The notes below the pieces were generated by a model, which did not search any database, had not been told where the DNA came from, and saw only the letters and a program-made list of their open reading frames with translations. This document shows positions 1 through 6,286 of a DNA stretch of 6,369 bases, one piece after another. Origin of the DNA: Bacillota bacterium (GTDB taxonomy: Bacteria > Bacillota > Bacilli > Bacillales_B > DSM-18226); NCBI GenBank assembly GCA_021821235.1, contig JAKACS010000192.1, positions 1 to 6,369 of the forward strand, read 5' to 3'. How positions within the stretch are numbered: position 1 is the stretch's first letter; each line of letters opens with the position of its first letter. The position numbers were made by a program, and so were the translations under genes.

Positions 1-457
1 TAATCGCGGCAACGACACCAACTGGAACGCGCTTGGCAAATCCAACTCTTCCTTCTCCTCCAACCGCAGCATCCATCTTAATCAATTCCCCGTCGTTTCG
101 CTTTGCTTCCTCACTGGCGAAACGAAGAACCTGTACCGCACGACCCACTTCTCCCCGAGCATCCCGAATCGGTTTTCCTGCTTCCCGACAAAGAAGCTGG
201 GCAAATTCTTCCCCGCGGCTTTCAAGCAAGTCCGCAGATTTCCGCAAAATTGTTGAGCGCTGATGCGCAGGCATTTTTTTCATTGTTCCCTCAAAAACCT
301 GCCCCGCCGTTTCAATTGCCAAATGTAAATCTTCCTCTGTAGCAAAGTCTACCTTCCCTACTAAAACTCCATTGTATGGATTCCGTACCTCGTATTGGGT
401 ACGGCCGTTTCCGCTATATTCTTTTCCATTAATAAGCGATCCAATGTTAACCACCAC
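1..457 (-). CDS. Aldehyde dehydrogenase family protein, N-terminal part (gene continues past the left edge)
   Basis: This is the first 152 codons of an NAD(P)-dependent aldehyde dehydrogenase; the catalytic Cys/Glu domain lies outside the window. Translation begins MVVNIGSLINGKEYSG and gives the usual N-terminal ALDH features: an xNPYNG strand near residues 26-30, a helix with the pattern PAHQRSTILRKSADLL (63-78), EAGKPIRDARGEV (92-104), and RVPVGVVAAI (143-152), which leads into the Rossmann fold. The GEL and GGEGR segments (123-137) resemble the lactaldehyde/phosphonoacetaldehyde/succinate-semialdehyde dehydrogenase side of the superfamily rather than betaine aldehyde dehydrogenase, but substrate cannot be assigned from this part. 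The GTG at 457 is chosen because AGGAGG lies 8 bases upstream; a second GTG follows directly at 454. It starts 12 bases after the ATPase stop, so it is probably translated from the same mRNA. The likely role is oxidising the semialdehyde made by the upstream aminotransferase (inference). Confidence 0.9.
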   Translation of the reverse strand, partial: MVVNIGSLINGKEYSGNGRTQYEVRNPYNGVLVGKVDFATEEDLHLAIETAGQVFEGTMKKMPAHQRSTILRKSADLLESRGEEFAQLLCREAGKPIRDARGEVGRAVQVLRFASEEAKRNDGELIKMDAAVGGEGRVGFAKRVPVGVVAAI

Positions 458-465
458 TTTATATT

Positions 466-471
466 CCTCCT
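466..471 (-). promoter_or_regulatory. Ribosome binding site AGGAGG of the aldehyde dehydrogenase gene, overlapping the ATPase stop codon
   Basis: On the minus strand the ATPase stop TAG runs directly into GAGG, so the AG of the stop is part of the Shine-Dalgarno AGGAGG. The spacer to the GTG at 457 is 8 bases. This arrangement supports GTG as the start and suggests the two genes are translationally linked. Confidence 0.8.
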
Positions 472-1222
472 AATGTTCCACTTTTTGAAGAAATTCCTTC
501 GTTCGTTTATGCTTCGGGTTATGGAGTAATTCCTTTGGCGATCCTTCCTCGACGATCACGCCTCCGTCCATAAAAATTACCCGATCGCCAACCTCTTCCG
601 CAAATTTCATCTCATGTGTGACCAAAACCATGGTCATTCCTTCTTTCGCCAATTCGCGAATAACATTTAACACTTCACCAATTAATTCGGGATCGAGCGC
701 TGAGGTTGCCTCATCAAACAGCATCGCTTTCGGCTCCATCGCCAGCGCTCTAGCGATGGCGACACGCTGTTGCTGCCCGCCTGATAATTGAGCCGGATAA
801 TGATTCATCCGATCCGCCAAGCCGACTTTACGCAAATAGATTTCGGCTGTTTTTCGGGCAGCTTCTTTCGATTTCTTTCGGATTTTGATTTGAGCAGCCA
901 TTACATTTTCAAGTGCCGTCATCGTTGGGAATAAGTTAAACCGTTGAAAAACCATGCCCACTTCGGTTCGAAGCCCAGCAACATGCTTCTCATTAAATTT
1001 TTCACCCGGTTTACTAAAATAATCACCATGGACCTTGACCGTTCCGCTTGTTGGAATTTCCAAATAGTTTAAGCAGCGAAGAAAAGTGGATTTGCCTGAG
1101 CCAGACGGTCCGATGATCACCACCTTCTCTCCCTGATGAATCTCTAAATCAATTCCTTTTAAAATTTCATTCGTGCCGAAAGATTTTCGCAATTGATTTA
1201 CTTCAATGATTGCATTAGACAT
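470..1222 (-). CDS. Polar amino acid ABC transporter, ATP-binding protein (GlnQ/HisP type)
   Basis: This is the cytoplasmic ATPase that powers the importer encoded by the two genes before it. The 250-residue length is typical of the GlnQ/HisP/ArtP group. All nucleotide-binding elements are visible: Walker [10 protein letters not shown] (38-46), Q-loop Gln93 in VFQRFNLFP, signature LSGGQQQR (146-153), Walker B ending [12 protein letters not shown] (166-177, with Asp170 and Glu171), and switch His203 in VTHEM. The [13 protein letters not shown] stretch after the Q-loop is characteristic of polar amino acid transporters. The D-loop region reads DEATSALD rather than the commoner DEPTSALD, an ordinary variation. 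The ATG at 1222 overlaps the permease 3' end by 8 bases (ATGTCTAA), with GAGGAG inside the permease gene serving as ribosome binding site, so the two are probably translationally coupled. The substrate is set by the binding protein and permease, not by this subunit. Confidence 0.95.
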
Positions 1223-1922
1223 GGCGCGCTAATCTCCTCTCCAGCACTCGGACTACTTGGGCCATTGGTAAACTTAGGACTAAATACGCTAGTGCTAAAA
1301 GCGTATAGGATTCAATCGTTAAGAACGTTTGCGAGGCGTAGGCTTGAGTACGAAGCAATAGTTCATACACCGTAATGAACGCAAGAAGTGAGGTATCCTT
1401 AATCATCATGATAATGTAATTGCCAAAGGTGGGTAAAGCAATCCGGCCGGCCTGTGGAATGACTATCGACCACATCGCCTGTTGCTTGGTGTAGCCAAGT
1501 GCGAGTGCGGCTTCCGTTTGACCGCGGTCGATCGAAATAATCGAGGAGCGAATTACTTCGGATAAATAAGCACCATAATTGATTCCCATCGCAACAGTGC
1601 CGGCAGTAAAGGCATCAAAATTAATTTGATAGTTTGGAATCCAAAATTGAACGATGAGCGAGAGAATTAATGGAACAACATAATACATATACACGAGTTG
1701 GACAACCAAAGGGGTGCCGCGAATAATTTCCAGGAATACCACCAATACGCCGTTCAGCCATTTGATTTTTGAAATACGGCCAAGAGCAATCAATGTTCCA
1801 AGGACCAACGCCAAAGCAAATCCGGCTATAGTGGCTCCGAGAACGGTTCCCATCGCTTTAAGCAATTCCGGATACAAGTCTTTAAAGGCTGTAGCAAAAT
1901 CTAAATTTTTTAAGATGTTCAT
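1215..1922 (-). CDS. Polar amino acid ABC transporter, permease (HisM/HisQ family)
   Basis: This is the inner-membrane channel subunit of the importer, 235 residues, as usual for the HisMQ family. It has about five hydrophobic segments (roughly 22-48, 58-92, 104-128, 160-185 and 205-225). The family signature [14 protein letters not shown] lies at 69-82, and the ATPase-contacting EAA loop lies at 134-160 ([17 protein letters not shown] then IPQAGR). Only one permease gene is present, so the channel is probably a homodimer with two copies of the ATPase, as in other Gram-positive glutamine and cystine-type importers. The ATG at 1922 is preceded by a G-rich site (GAGGGGGG) about 6 bases upstream. 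The gene is separated from the upstream lipoprotein gene by 90 bases containing a hairpin, and overlaps the ATPase gene by 8 bases. Confidence 0.95.
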
Positions 1923-1962: not shown

Positions 1963-2000
1963 ATTATAAAATTAGGAGAGCTTCATCAAGAGCTCTCCTA
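1963..2000 (-). terminator. Hairpin with short U-tract between binding-protein and permease genes; probable partial terminator or mRNA-stabilising element
   Basis: The arms TAGGAGAGCT and AGCTCTCCTA (1991-2000 and 1973-1982) are perfectly complementary over 10 bp, with an 8-base loop. On the minus strand the stem is followed by ATTTTATAATT. It starts 12 bases after the lipoprotein stop codon. The stem is strong, but the U-tract is short and interrupted by A, so read-through is expected; the permease and ATPase genes downstream have no other clear promoter. Hairpins in this position in bacterial transporter operons are known to cause more binding protein than membrane subunits to be made. That is the most likely role here, by inference. 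Confidence 0.75.
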
Positions 2001-2012
2001 GAACATGACGAC

Positions 2013-2876
2013 TTACTTTCCAGCAGGCACGAAGTTATCTTCGTTTAATCCATACTTTTTCAACACTTTTAGGACAAAGCCTTCTTCCTTCAACTTATCC
2101 AACTCACTATTGACAGCTTCCAACAGATCTTTATCTGACTTTCGGACTGCCGCACCAATTTTTCCAGCTGCTTCGGCTTTATAAGGAGAAACCAATTTTA
2201 AGTTCAAGGTTTTATCATTGGTGATACTATATCCAGCCACCGCACTATCAGTGATGGTCGCATCAATTTTTTTCGTATTAACCGCAAGAAGTAGTTCAGA
2301 TTGAGAGTTAAATACCTTCACATCTTTGATTTTGCCTTCTTTTTGAAGCTTTTGCGCAAACTCAAGGAAGGCTGTTCCCTTTTGTCCGCCACCCGTCTTA
2401 TCCTTTAAATCCTCCAAACCGTTACTCGGAGAATCCTTCAAGACGACTAATGCTTCCCCTTCGGTATACCAAATGTTTGTGAAATTGGCGATCTTCTGAC
2501 GCTCTGGTTTGATATACATTCCATCTGTTACCATATCAACCCGGTTGTTATTAAGCTCAAGCAACAGATTTTCAAACTTCACTTCTTTCATTTCTACTTT
2601 TGGGATGCCTAACCGCTTGGCGATTTCAGTAATGATTTCAGCGTCAATACCGGCAAACTTTTTCGTATCTTTATCAATGTAGGCAAAAGGCACGTCGTTA
2701 GAGGAAGCGACAACCAGCACCCCTTTTTCTTTTGCTTTTTCTAATGTACTAGCAGAAGATTTGCTGTCAGCTTTCGCTTTACTAACAGATCCGTTTGTTG
2801 CTTTTCCGCTACTGCAGCCAGCTAAAAGGACAAGTGCAACAGCCATAAGCAAAAAAAGTTTAGTGAAGTGTTTCAT
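2013..2876 (-). CDS. Polar amino acid ABC transporter, substrate-binding lipoprotein
   Basis: This is the extracellular receptor of the importer, 287 residues, family 3 (HisJ/GlnH type, SBP_bac_3). The N-terminus MKHFTKLF, a hydrophobic stretch and the lipobox LAGC with Cys21 make a lipoprotein signal; a Ser/Lys/Ala-rich tether follows (22-43). The binding domain begins about residue 45 (EKAKEKGVLVVASSNDVPFAY) and includes GIDAEIITEIAKRLG (76-90) and MYIKPERQKIANFT (120-133). By comparison with LAO/HisJ proteins, Arg126 is the carboxylate-binding arginine, Thr168 (GTAF) a second carboxylate contact, and Asp210 (ATITDSAV) the amino-group ligand, so an amino acid ligand is likely. The positions matching the usual pocket serines are Asp118, Gly119 and Tyr121 (TDGMY), which suggests a non-standard side chain. 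The ATG at 2876 has AAGGGGGAA upstream, 25 bases after the HisD-like gene. The exact ligand is unknown. Confidence 0.92.
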   Translation of the reverse strand: MKHFTKLFLLMAVALVLLAGCSSGKATNGSVSKAKADSKSSASTLEKAKEKGVLVVASSNDVPFAYIDKDTKKFAGIDAEIITEIAKRLGIPKVEMKEVKFENLLLELNNNRVDMVTDGMYIKPERQKIANFTNIWYTEGEALVVLKDSPSNGLEDLKDKTGGGQKGTAFLEFAQKLQKEGKIKDVKVFNSQSELLLAVNTKKIDATITDSAVAGYSITNDKTLNLKLVSPYKAEAAGKIGAAVRKSDKDLLEAVNSELDKLKEEGFVLKVLKKYGLNEDNFVPAGK

Positions 2877-2901: not shown

Positions 2902-4173
2902 TTAGTTGATGTCCAGCTTTCCACTCCATCTGACATTGGCTGAGCGAAGATGACCAATTAATCCTTCCTGGTTTGACTGTCTAACACAATGGGGTGCCAG
3001 CACCTCTACCCCTGCTGGTTTGATCTGTTGATAGGTTACTACTTTTAAAAATGTCCCTACCCATACGCCGCCGGTATATTTTGCAGCAGCCCGTGTGGGA
3101 AGAATATGATTCGTTCCACACACTTTGTCGGCATAAACAACCGAGGAAAGTTCCCCTAAAAAAAGTGATCCATAGTTAATGAATCGGTCTTTAATTTCAT
3201 ATGCATTTTTTGTTTGAACATGGAGATGTTCCGGTGCCCACTCATTCACAATTGAAATAGCTTCTTCAAAATGATCAGCCAAGAATACTTGCCCCTTTTT
3301 TCCCCACGATGCGCGGGCGACTTCAGCAGTCGGCAAGGTTTTCAACTGTTCTTCAATTTCACGAAGAACGGCCATTCCTAGATCACGATCCGTCGTGACC
3401 AAGGCGACCCTTGCATTAACATCATGTTCGGCTTGGGCAAGTAAATCGGAAGCTACATAAACCGGATTAGAAAATTGGTCAGCTACCACTAACACTTCAC
3501 TAGGACCGGCTAACAAATCAATTCCAACCTGACCATTTACCTGGCGCTTGGCCTCGGTCACAAACAAGTTGCCCGGTCCGGTAATCTTGTTAACCGGAGC
3601 AATCGACTCAGTCCCGTAAGCAAGAGCAGCAATTGCTTGCGCTCCGCCCACACGGTAGATTTCATCTGCTCCGGACAAGTGGGCCGCTACGAGAACGGCC
3701 GGATGGACTTCGCCTGTCTTGGTTGGCGGTGTACATACTTTCACATTTGAAACACCTGCGACTTTTGCCGGGATGATCGCCATCTGTGCCGAAGATAACA
3801 ACGGATAGCGGCCTCCGGGGACATAAGCTCCCACCGTTTCAATCGGAATCACCCGTTGTCCTAAAAACACCCCTGGAATCATTTCTTGTTCAAATTCAGT
3901 CAGTGATCGGCGTTGAGCTTCGGCAAAGGCTTGAATCCGTTCAATAGAAAATTGGAGATCCTCTATCAATGTTTGCGGCAATTGTGCTCGTGCCTTTTGA
4001 ATATCCTCCCCTTTGACGCGAAGTTCTTCGATCTCCACCCCATCAAACTCTCGCAAATAGGCTTTGAGGGCAGCATCCCCTTCATGGCGAACGCGGCTAA
4101 TAATAGAAGATACAGTGTCTTTAACGGTTACTTGTTCTCCACTGTTCAGCTGTTCCTGTTTTAACATTTCCAT
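2902..4173 (-). CDS. hisD: Histidinol dehydrogenase family protein (HisD-like), probably a catabolic paralogue
   Basis: Zinc- and NAD-dependent dehydrogenases of this family oxidise an alcohol to a carboxylate in two steps; HisD itself converts L-histidinol to L-histidine. The 423-residue product has full family length and retains every hallmark: PGGRYPL (about 119-125), GPGN (199-202), AGPSEVLVVAD, the zinc ligands Gln247 and His250 (AQAEHD), the catalytic pair Glu315-His316 (APEHL), Asp349 before CGTNHILPT, and Glu403/His408 (EGLIGH) at the C-terminus. It should therefore be active. Other histidine genes are absent, and it sits between an aminotransferase and an amino acid importer, so a substrate other than histidinol is likely; the same family contains sulfopropanediol dehydrogenase HpsN. 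The segment TGGVWVGTFLKVVTYQQI (367-384) lies where HisD proteins differ most from their paralogues. The ATG at 4173 is preferred over the TTG at 4179. Family assignment is sure, substrate is not. Confidence 0.85.
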   Translation of the reverse strand: MEMLKQEQLNSGEQVTVKDTVSSIISRVRHEGDAALKAYLREFDGVEIEELRVKGEDIQKARAQLPQTLIEDLQFSIERIQAFAEAQRRSLTEFEQEMIPGVFLGQRVIPIETVGAYVPGGRYPLLSSAQMAIIPAKVAGVSNVKVCTPPTKTGEVHPAVLVAAHLSGADEIYRVGGAQAIAALAYGTESIAPVNKITGPGNLFVTEAKRQVNGQVGIDLLAGPSEVLVVADQFSNPVYVASDLLAQAEHDVNARVALVTTDRDLGMAVLREIEEQLKTLPTAEVARASWGKKGQVFLADHFEEAISIVNEWAPEHLHVQTKNAYEIKDRFINYGSLFLGELSSVVYADKVCGTNHILPTRAAAKYTGGVWVGTFLKVVTYQQIKPAGVEVLAPHCVRQSNQEGLIGHLRSANVRWSGKLDIN

Positions 4174-4181
4174 GGACAAGT

Positions 4182-4187
4182 CTCCTT
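4182..4187 (-). promoter_or_regulatory. Ribosome binding site AAGGAG of the HisD-like gene
   Basis: AAGGAG begins directly after the aminotransferase stop codon TAA (4188-4190). Its spacer is 8 bases to the ATG at 4173 but only 2 bases to the in-frame TTG at 4179. This places the start at 4173 and shortens the longest open frame by two codons. Confidence 0.8.
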
Positions 4188-5537
4188 TTACGCTTTTACT
4201 GCTTGACCCAGTACTTCGTGAATGGAAGATTCCAATACATCCAACCCTTCAGCCAACTGCTCATCGGTTACGACTAGCGGAACTAAGACTCGGATACAAT
4301 TGCTGAATAGTCCGGCATTTAGAAGGATCAGCCCTTTTTGCTGGGCATTGGCAATAATCTTGGAAACCGCTTCTTTATCAGGTTCTTTTGTTTGTGGATC
4401 TTTCACGAATTCAATCGCTACCATGGAACCTAAGCCGCGAACATCGCCAATTTGCGGATAGTGAACTTGTAAACTTTTAAACCGTTCCGTTAACGCCGTT
4501 CCGATTTTTTGAGATCTCTCTACTAATCCATCATTCTCAATAATCTTGATTACTTCGAGGGCAGCCACACAGCCGAGCGGGCTTCCACCATATGTGCCCC
4601 CAATTTCACCCGGCGCCGGTGCATCGATAATTTCAGAACGTCCGACAACGGCAGAAATCGGAAGGCCTGCCCCTAAAGATTTCGATAATGTCATCAAATC
4701 TGGCACAACGCCAAATTGCTCGATCGCGAACATTGTGCCGGTACGGGCAAAACCAGTCTGAATTTCATCGGCGATAAAGAGGATGCCATACTTTTCACAA
4801 ATCTTCTTAAGCCCTTGCATGAAGGTTTTGGACGGAACGACAAATCCTCCTTCGCCTTGAACAGGTTCGATGATGACAGCAGCAATTTCATCAGTTGGCG
4901 CTTCAGCTAAGAAGAATGTTTCTAGCTCCTTTAAAAGTTCTTGATCGAGCTGCTCCTCTGTCATCCCTTCCGGCCTGCGGAAATAATAAGGATAACCTGC
5001 ACGGAATGTCTCCGGAGCAAACGGTCCAAATTGATATTTATAAGGCTTTACTTTACTCGTTAACGACATCGCCAGCAGCGTCCGGCCATGGAAACCGCGT
5101 TCGAAGGAGATAATCCCTTTACGGCCGGTGTACTTTCGGGCAATTTTTACAGCATTTTCAACCGCTTCCGCTCCACTATTAGCAAAAAAAGCTTTTTTCG
5201 CATGATCGCCTGGTGTAATCCGAACCAACTCTTCCGCCAACCTAACATACGGTTCATACATCATGACATTGAAACAAGTATGGATATACTGATCAAGCTG
5301 ATTTTTCAAAGCTTGGACAACACGGGCTGGACTATGGCCGACGTTTAAGGTTCCGATTGCTCCAGCAAAATCAATAAAGGTATTCTCGTCAACATCTGTT
5401 AATAAGGCTCCCTCGCCCTTTTCTGCAAAGGATAAAATCGAATTGGATGGGCCTCGTGCAACGACGTGTTCTTTTCGTTTTAACAATTCTTGAGCCTTCG
5501 GTCCAGGCACGGCTGTTTTCATGTTAATAGACGGCAT
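4188..5537 (-). CDS. gabT: Class III PLP aminotransferase, 4-aminobutyrate--2-oxoglutarate type (GabT)
   Basis: This cytoplasmic PLP enzyme moves a terminal amino group to 2-oxoglutarate, giving a semialdehyde and glutamate. The 449-residue protein is close in pattern to E. coli GabT throughout. PLP elements are SGAEAVE (121-127), GFHGRT (148-153), Asp257 in DEIQTGFARTG, the Schiff-base lysine Lys286 (LSKSLGAG) and Thr315 (GGTYGG). The positions that set GABA specificity in E. coli GabT are also kept: Ile61 (for Ile50), Arg152 (Arg141), Glu229 in EPVQGEGG (Glu211) and Arg416 in IRVLVPL (Arg398). This supports an omega-amino acid such as GABA with 2-oxoglutarate as acceptor, though 5-aminovalerate or a related compound is possible. 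The ATG at 5537 is chosen because AAGGAGG ends 7 bases upstream; the frame stays open for 13 more codons but they lack a ribosome binding site and cover the operator. It is the first gene after the operator and lies 14 bases before the HisD-like gene. Confidence 0.9.
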   Translation of the reverse strand: MPSINMKTAVPGPKAQELLKRKEHVVARGPSNSILSFAEKGEGALLTDVDENTFIDFAGAIGTLNVGHSPARVVQALKNQLDQYIHTCFNVMMYEPYVRLAEELVRITPGDHAKKAFFANSGAEAVENAVKIARKYTGRKGIISFERGFHGRTLLAMSLTSKVKPYKYQFGPFAPETFRAGYPYYFRRPEGMTEEQLDQELLKELETFFLAEAPTDEIAAVIIEPVQGEGGFVVPSKTFMQGLKKICEKYGILFIADEIQTGFARTGTMFAIEQFGVVPDLMTLSKSLGAGLPISAVVGRSEIIDAPAPGEIGGTYGGSPLGCVAALEVIKIIENDGLVERSQKIGTALTERFKSLQVHYPQIGDVRGLGSMVAIEFVKDPQTKEPDKEAVSKIIANAQQKGLILLNAGLFSNCIRVLVPLVVTDEQLAEGLDVLESSIHEVLGQAVKA

Positions 5538-5544
5538 ATTGTAT

Positions 5545-5551
5545 CCTCCTT
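5545..5551 (-). promoter_or_regulatory. Ribosome binding site AAGGAGG of the gabT-like gene
   Basis: This near-perfect Shine-Dalgarno sequence has a 7-base spacer (ATACAAT) to the ATG at 5537. It decides against the longer frame starting at 5576. Confidence 0.88.
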
Positions 5552-5564
5552 GTATGTGTACAAT

Positions 5565-5578
5565 GATTGTATACAATC
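5565..5578. promoter_or_regulatory. Probable GntR/FCD operator, 14-bp perfect palindrome GATTGTATACAATC
   Basis: The sequence GATTGTATACAATC reads identically on both strands. Its core TTGTATACAA matches the short palindromes generally bound by FadR/VanR-type GntR regulators, and it lies between the gene for such a regulator and the first enzyme gene. Further TTGTA half-sites surround it: on the plus strand at 5539, 5550 and 5604, and on the minus strand reading from 5563. TTGTA-N4-TACAA at 5550-5563 forms a second, spaced inverted repeat that overlaps the gabT ribosome binding site. No convincing -35/-10 pair for a separate gabT promoter is visible; the TACAAT inside the palindrome could act as a -10, but nothing like TTGACA lies 17 bases upstream. 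Binding here could block initiation or act as a roadblock to transcription from the gntR promoter. Confidence 0.72.
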
Positions 5579-5596: not shown

Positions 5597-6286
5597 CTAG
5601 GGATTGTACCGAGTAATGATTTGTTCAATTGATAAGGCGTGATTTAATTTTTTCGTGAAGTCAATATCTCCTACGATGAATGGAATGTGATCGATGGCTA
5701 GTTGTTTTGCACGGTTAGCGTCTCGTTGATGGATAGCCTCATACAAGGCACGATGCTCATGATTGGAGTGAGTGGTATTGGTTTCTGCAACGTCGTAGAA
5801 TGTTTGAATGATATACGTTAAGGATAGAATTTCTCGCAAATACCGGATGAGATACACATTCTTGCAGGCTTCAATTACTGCCATATGAAAGGACTGAATG
5901 GCTTGAAGGGCAAGGTGTGGTTGATTCTGCTGATAGTACTGTTCCTCTCGATCCAAGAAGATGTTCATTTTTTCAAAATCGGTCGAACTCGCCTTTAGTG
6001 CTGCTAGATATGTAGCTTCTGGCTCTAAGATCTGCCTGACGAAAAAGATCTCTTCTGCTTCTTGCGGGGTCGGGCAATAAACAAATGCTCCCTTATTGGG
6101 TATGAATTGCACGAGTGATTCATACCTCAGCCGAGAAAGCACCGACCGAATCGGCGTTCGACTCACGCCAAACGCATCAGCAAGGGAAGATTCCACTAAT
6201 TGAGTGCCCGGTGGAAGCTCTGCATTAAAAATGGCATTTCTTAAAACCTGGTAAATTTGCTGTTCCCCCATTTTTGAATGTAACAA
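5597..6286 (-). CDS. GntR-family transcriptional regulator, FadR subfamily (FCD domain)
   Basis: This is a DNA-binding regulator, probably the ligand-responsive repressor of the operon. The 229-residue protein has a winged helix-turn-helix (about 8-70) with the GntR pattern PPGTQLVESSLADAFGVSRT (25-44), PIRSVLSRL, and wing PNKGAFV. An all-helical FCD effector domain follows (about 75-215), beginning FFVRQILEPEATYLA. FCD domains usually hold a metal through Asp and three His; here His134 (SFH), His178 (NHEH) and His200 (DHIPF) are present, but the Asp expected four residues before the first His is Ile130. The start is TTG at 6286, since AAGGAGG lies 6 bases upstream while the first ATG (6271) is 21 bases away. 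It lies 59 bases upstream of gabT, on the same strand, with an FCD-type operator in the gap. Family is certain; ligand is unknown. Confidence 0.92.
   Translation of the reverse strand: MLHSKMGEQQIYQVLRNAIFNAELPPGTQLVESSLADAFGVSRTPIRSVLSRLRYESLVQFIPNKGAFVYCPTPQEAEEIFFVRQILEPEATYLAALKASSTDFEKMNIFLDREEQYYQQNQPHLALQAIQSFHMAVIEACKNVYLIRYLREILSLTYIIQTFYDVAETNTTHSNHEHRALYEAIHQRDANRAKQLAIDHIPFIVGDIDFTKKLNHALSIEQIITRYNP

Follow-up and report, generated by a model that had tools for sequence, protein, structure and literature searches.

What is a fully equipped member of the histidinol dehydrogenase (HisD) family doing between an aminotransferase gene and the genes of an importer? The question is raised by contig JAKACS010000192.1 of a Bacillota bacterium, whose 6,369 nucleotides (the window) carry seven genes, all on the minus strand and in one direction. 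They encode a GntR/FCD regulator, a GabT-type aminotransferase, the HisD-family dehydrogenase (here called HisDL), the substrate-binding protein (SBP), permease and ATPase of an ABC importer, and a truncated aldehyde dehydrogenase (ALDH). The intergenic gaps are short, with 14 bp between the gabT stop and the HisDL ATG, and no histidine-biosynthesis gene was seen among the open reading frames called in the window. In our view this is probably, though far from certainly, an inducible catabolic operon with the importer and HisDL as its core and GabT and ALDH as a second, separable module. Gene identities, residues, clade, the his-cluster HisD of relatives and the separability of gabT and ALDH are read from the sequence; substrate class, order of steps, regulation and use of NAD we infer.

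The HisDL gene (2902..4179, minus strand) encodes 425 amino acids from a TTG and 423, the length of its database relatives, from the likely start, an ATG at 4173. The protein scores 502 bits against Pfam Histidinol_dh over residues 15-417 and 489 bits against NCBIfam TIGR00069 (cutoff 243.8). The zinc ligands Gln249, His252, Asp351 and His410 are kept, as are the catalytic Glu317 and His318, and Ser227. A sequence-only reading of this DNA had described a complete set for uptake, transamination and aldehyde oxidation around a fully equipped HisD-like enzyme with no other histidine gene beside it; the profiles and these residues bear the description out, with the ALDH cut short. It had also known of no described pathway with this gene set, and the literature searched returned papers on HpsN, the sulfopropanediol 3-dehydrogenase, and no such set.

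Close relatives of HisDL were sought by matching a pattern against a single genome from each GTDB species; of 201 loci, the best 80 were kept. Twelve of these (L001-L012), all from Bacillota, encode proteins 68-89% identical to HisDL, and the next locus stands at 51%. A thirteenth (L193, genome G548, 88% identical) came from a set of 193 genomes, all from the family to which Neobacillus terrae belongs. A match to the window SBP adjoins HisDL in 7 of the 13 loci (L001, L002, L004, L006, L007, L009 and L193), accompanied by permease and ATPase in the first six; L193 was queried for the SBP and not for these two. The window aside, gabT and ALDH adjoin HisDL in two of the 13 (L001 and L193); a class-III aminotransferase in L007, 8.3 kb from HisDL and on the opposite strand, was not counted. 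Of the 12 loci searched for one, 7 have a PAS-sigma54 activator upstream (L003, L004, L006, L007, L009, L010 and L011), at a distance of about 4 kb in L010. In both Cohnella loci (L005:8274-9731; L012) a malic enzyme gene is divergent from HisDL; over all 132 loci such genes were found in four (L005, L012, L143 and L256), each beside a Lys-type HisD-like gene.

The locus L002, from Bacillus sp. AFS006103, shows what can become of gabT and ALDH. Its regulator, HisDL and importer are intact. Between regulator and HisDL (L002:9791-10010) lie decayed pieces of a gabT, from its beginning, an internal part and its end, which match the L001 gene at 94.5% over 73 bases, 94% over 34 and 80% over 99, and after the ATPase (L002:13690-13982) lie decayed pieces of an ALDH gene, at 84% over 44 bases, 91% over 113 and 85% over 142. 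To judge from these pieces, L002 once had gabT and ALDH, and both decayed while the rest of the operon stayed. The ratio of nonsynonymous to synonymous substitution rates, computed with our own script, is 0.035-0.172 for the regulator, HisDL, SBP, permease and ATPase over the pairs computed (L193 was included for HisDL only), which indicates purifying selection on the genes retained in the operon. The strongest indication that GabT and ALDH are a single module, separable from HisDL and the importer, comes from the L002 remnants, which also warn that a neighbouring gabT and ALDH need not share the pathway of HisDL.

The alternative that survives best is one obligatory linear pathway, in which HisDL would oxidise an amino alcohol to an omega-amino acid and GabT and ALDH would finish the breakdown. 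The full gene set of the window, L001 and L193 speaks for it, as does the joint decay of gabT and ALDH in L002, yet L002 also retains HisDL and importer without them, they are adjacent to HisDL in only two of the 13 loci, and a search for GabT at E<=1e-100 gave nothing in 5 of 12 HisDL genomes. The idea of gabT as a fixed partner of HisDL was rejected or at least weakened.

A further point in favour of the linear pathway comes from outside Bacillota, where class-III pyridoxal-phosphate (PLP) enzymes recur beside HisDL. Plasmid records with a match numbered 358; from the 40 listed, 17 were chosen without knowledge of the neighbouring genes and opened, and 15 of these 17 carry an [AS]DK-type HisDL from Pseudomonadota. 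Genome loci were fetched for 20 of 36 places of one set and four of five of another (the fifth was already present), and the class-III profile was applied to loci of more than 12 kb. Such an enzyme was found within the fetched flanks of 7 of 30 Pseudomonadota [AS]DK loci (L194, L197, L198, L199, L241, L242 and L243), in 2 of 13 Bacillota loci of the window clade, in none of eight from another Bacillota [AS]DK subgroup, and in none of 28 GDK-type or 52 DY-type entries. Nine Pseudomonadota genomes hold 112 class-III PLP genes in 52.5 Mb, so that about 1.2 would be expected in 30 loci, against the seven observed. The enzymes belong to several subfamilies; since five of the seven loci share one enzyme type, the number of independent events is below seven, and the subfamilies point to at least three. 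These five (L198, L199, L241, L242 and L243) have the enzyme of the L199 type, for which the solved chains nearest to the L199 protein are a phospholyase (5g4i) and an ethanolamine-phosphate phospho-lyase (6tor), and near it lie a kinase, a regulator (best model PuuR) and a binding protein (best model PotD), with model scores below cutoff. The kinase and phospholyase-like genes beside the Hyphomicrobiales HisDL presumably serve R-CH(OH)-CH2NH2 chemistry. L250, at 9.6 kb too short for the profile scan, gave no class-III enzyme by tblastn. In L274, from a Sinorhizobium plasmid, HisDL is split over two frames (8773-10216) by a frameshift or a sequencing error, and was counted once.

Taken together, the proposal that these genes form one pathway, to be judged by a family tree and by conserved linkage, stands in part. 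The importer beside HisDL in 7 of 13 loci and the recurring class-III enzymes uphold it, while obligatory participation of gabT and ALDH is not borne out. The single-pathway reading is weaker than had first been thought, and the linear pathway is in our judgement possible but unlikely.

Two unrelated functions under one regulator, namely the use of 4-aminobutyrate (GABA) by GabT and ALDH and a separate task for HisDL and the importer, would likewise explain why gabT and ALDH were lost jointly and the rest kept. GabT does exceed the GABA-transaminase cutoffs, with 690 bits for PRK06918 (cutoff 676) and 599 bits for TIGR00700 (cutoff 507). However, another gabT-ALDH pair is present elsewhere in the genome of N. 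terrae (G001), with 67% and 47% identity to the operon types, and class-III PLP enzymes are again met as neighbours of HisDL in other phyla; we regard this division of labour as improbable. The pair elsewhere makes that of the operon an additional set, perhaps a specialised one.

Does HisDL itself act on histidinol? All 12 genomes with a close HisDL carry at least two HisD-family genes, and the best Pfam HisD match of each adjoins hisG and hisB (L081-L092); G548 was left out of this count. Because another HisD thus stands in the his cluster of every one of these relatives, HisDL is very probably not the biosynthetic enzyme. This agrees with the sequence-only reading, which had called for a search for a second hisD; the search was run in relatives only. 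Among other HisD genes, DY-type ones in L013, L014 and L016 have no his genes in the locus, and those of L013 and L014 are followed by a gene resembling amino acid permeases; they possibly serve histidinol salvage.

The active site of HisDL differs both from that of HisD and from that of HpsN, which oxidises 2,3-dihydroxypropane-1-sulfonate (DHPS). HisD-type enzymes convert a CH2OH group or an aldehyde beside a zinc-bound hydroxyl or amine to an acid, using two NAD. The residue after the zinc-ligand Asp is Lys352 in HisDL and Lys in HpsN, and Tyr in his-operon HisD; the earlier choice of HpsN as a parallel for recruitment was therefore apt. The position of the sulfonate-binding His of HpsN is Leu127 in HisDL and also Leu in E. 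coli HisD, and the HpsN motif G-R-Y-[AS]-H is replaced by GRYPL. The sulfonate-site His occurs in none of the 120 relatives listed of 7998, and 119 of the 120 have the [AS]DK pattern (the exception is P0063). For the HpsN of Cupriavidus pinatubonensis, one report states that His126 and Lys353 hold the sulfonate (HpsN chains are numbered here one higher), that HpsN proteins conserve His126 where HisD mostly has Leu, and that activity with L-histidinol was not detected (PMC11382572). For Ruegeria HpsN, another reports an efficiency with histidinol 691-fold below that with DHPS, along with some DHPS activity of E. coli HisD (PMC11131964); assays of HisDL must therefore be quantitative. Database relatives of HisDL are named histidinol dehydrogenase or, in many cases, sulfopropanediol 3-dehydrogenase, and no test of either name for this group was found in the literature searched. 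Very likely HisDL is a catabolic paralogue that bears the wrong label.

In a tree of 54 rows the window clade is distinct, with support of 100/100, and the Lys-type rows are grouped with support of 96/89 (SH-aLRT 96 in a tree of 115 rows). The approximately unbiased (AU) test rejects a single clade with the two HpsN chains (p-AU 1.9e-42). Descent of HisDL from the HpsN side was not retained as a firm claim: HisDL is placed apart from his-operon HisD, but both AU tests leave the his-operon alternative standing.

That HisDL is a histidinol dehydrogenase, for salvage of imported histidinol or for biosynthesis, would accord with its TIGR00069 score, with a grouping with his-operon HisD that the trees do not reject and with an importer of the amino-acid type. 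The his-cluster HisD of the 12 relatives and the Lys in place of Tyr oppose it, as does the lack of any histidine step that would suit GabT and ALDH, and we consider it very improbable. That HisDL is an HpsN, as many database labels have it, is hardly credible even with HpsN as the nearest solved chains and the Lys in common, given the Leu in place of the sulfonate His, the rejected joint clade, and Xsc above cutoff in only 2 of 13 HisDL genomes (G003 and G010), not including G001, G002 and G548, the three that have the operon or what is left of it, which makes DHPS use via the Xsc route unlikely (SuyAB and CuyA were not searched).

Several observations weigh against a catabolic core of importer and HisDL with a separable second module. 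Six of the 13 Bacillota loci are without a window-type SBP and some of them have other carriers, so a single substrate for the whole clade is not certain; L003 has an APC carrier (best model GABA permease, 529 bits against a cutoff of 678), and L011 has TRAP-type genes. The loss in L002 may be recent, because the remnants are still 80-94% similar. The genome of L002 (G002) holds three GabT homologues elsewhere (52-60%), which might stand in for the lost gabT; no operon-type ALDH was found in it at E<=1e-110. A clade of HisDL with his-operon HisD was not rejected (p-AU 0.10), and in the 115-row quick tree this grouping has p-AU 0.61 and a likelihood 7.7 above the free tree.

With a core of importer and HisDL as the preferred reading, the following scheme may be proposed. 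The importer would take up a small, polar compound that has an acid group and probably also an amine. An amino-acid-like ligand is suggested by the Arg and Asp of the amino-acid site, retained in the eight operon-type SBPs aligned, which we take to be the carboxylate- and amine-binding residues of that family. Like HisD and HpsN, the zinc- and NAD-dependent HisDL would work by two hydride steps, producing an acid from a primary alcohol, or from the corresponding aldehyde, that adjoins a zinc-binding hydroxyl or amine; the Lys of HisDL suggests an acidic group on the substrate. GabT and ALDH would act in turn on a terminal amine, giving first an aldehyde and then the acid, in amine-bearing relatives of the substrate or in the HisDL product.

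One speculative candidate, to which we give a small chance, is that HisDL forms malate from 3,4-dihydroxybutyrate or 3-hydroxy-4-oxobutyrate, with GabT feeding the aldehyde from 4-amino-3-hydroxybutyrate. The first two correspond exactly to DHPS and sulfolactaldehyde, with carboxylate in place of sulfonate. An HpsN-type Lys without the sulfonate His would fit, as would the amino-acid-type importer, the Hyphomicrobiales kinase and phospholyase-like genes and the malic enzyme genes in 4 of 132 loci. The literature searched held nothing on HisD-like enzymes for 4-amino-3-hydroxybutyrate or 3,4-dihydroxybutyrate. A close alternative would be conversion of 3-amino-1,2-propanediol to isoserine.

The remaining features of the window, likewise on the minus strand, are as follows. 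The regulator (5597..6286; Pfam GntR and FCD above cutoff) has a counterpart in the same place in L001 (82% identity) and L002 (83%). Between it and gabT lies an operator-like block, TTGTATACAA-N3-TTGTACACA (5555..5576), shared by all four loci looked at (the window, L001, L002 and L193) with a varying last base; in the same four, the palindrome-bearing block TTGTATACAA-N3-TTGTACAC separates the regulator from gabT or its remnant. Judged against a consensus for such sites, the former is a candidate operator. The gabT gene (4188..5576, likely ATG 5537) encodes a class-III aminotransferase by PRK06918 and TIGR00700 that aligns with E. coli GabT at R141, E211, D239, K268 and R398, which we presume to be functional residues. 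The SBP is a family-3 lipoprotein of an amino-acid-type importer (2013..2876; Pfam SBP_bac_3). Between its gene and that of the permease (1215..1922; BPD_transp_1 and TIGR01726 above cutoff) is a hairpin with a 10-pair stem (1973..2000), present at this junction in 6 of 6 loci folded (the gaps of L006 and L009 were left out), which may reduce expression of the genes downstream. The ATPase (470..1222; Pfam ABC_tran) has GlnQ as its best NCBIfam model, with 334 bits, under the cutoff of 379. The contig end leaves the first 152 residues of the ALDH (2..457; Pfam Aldedh), 87% identical to the start of the full-length L001 gene (476 amino acids), whose product scores 391.5 bits against the succinate-semialdehyde dehydrogenase (SSADH) model TIGR01780, below the cutoff of 646.35, activity not being thereby excluded. 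Assignment of ALDH specificity by residues was abandoned and nothing concluded, as the E. coli GabD positions used lacked the expected residues even in E. coli. Promoter-like sites (9, against 10.4 in shuffles) and terminator-like sites (5, against 6.5) show no excess in the window.

Two other sets of HisD-like genes were observed in the loci. One subgroup (L132, L135, L137, L138, L139, L141 and L200) is repeatedly clustered with amidase, alpha/beta hydrolase, cupin, aldolase and ester-cyclase-like genes; L200 is annotated, and in the other loci these genes were named by eye. In L128, L129 and L140, again by eye, a GRYPM-type gene lies beside a short-chain dehydrogenase/reductase gene, a 3-hydroxyacyl-dehydrogenase-like gene and a GntP-like carrier.

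The Lys of HpsN combined with Leu at the sulfonate His position sets apart a further group, which was seen in Bacillota, Pseudomonadota and other phyla. The pattern supplies a sequence rule for re-labelling relatives, the analysis gives a list of candidate substrates, and the operon is small enough to assay whole.

How does the operon compare with known systems? Polar amino acid ABC importers of the EhuB, GlnH and AncQR type likewise combine a family-3 SBP bearing Arg and Asp with one permease and one ATPase, although the window SBP and ATPase fall below the curated equivalog cutoffs listed. GABA catabolism by GabT and GabD is resembled in a GabT above GABA-transaminase cutoffs and an ALDH, but the operon adds HisDL and an importer, its ALDH type is below the SSADH cutoff, and the N. 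terrae copy is a second pair. With E. coli HisD, HisDL shares the fold family, zinc ligands, catalytic Glu-His and the Leu at the HpsN His site, whereas it has Lys for Tyr361 and sits outside the his cluster, which in all 12 relatives has a HisD of its own. HpsN of C. pinatubonensis (PDB 8v35), the R-DHPS 3-dehydrogenase, differs in its sulfonate His and its clade, and no hpsO, hpsP or sulfolyase gene was seen beside HisDL; yet it shares with HisDL the fold family, the zinc ligands and catalytic Glu-His, the Lys after the zinc-ligand Asp and the recruitment to catabolism.

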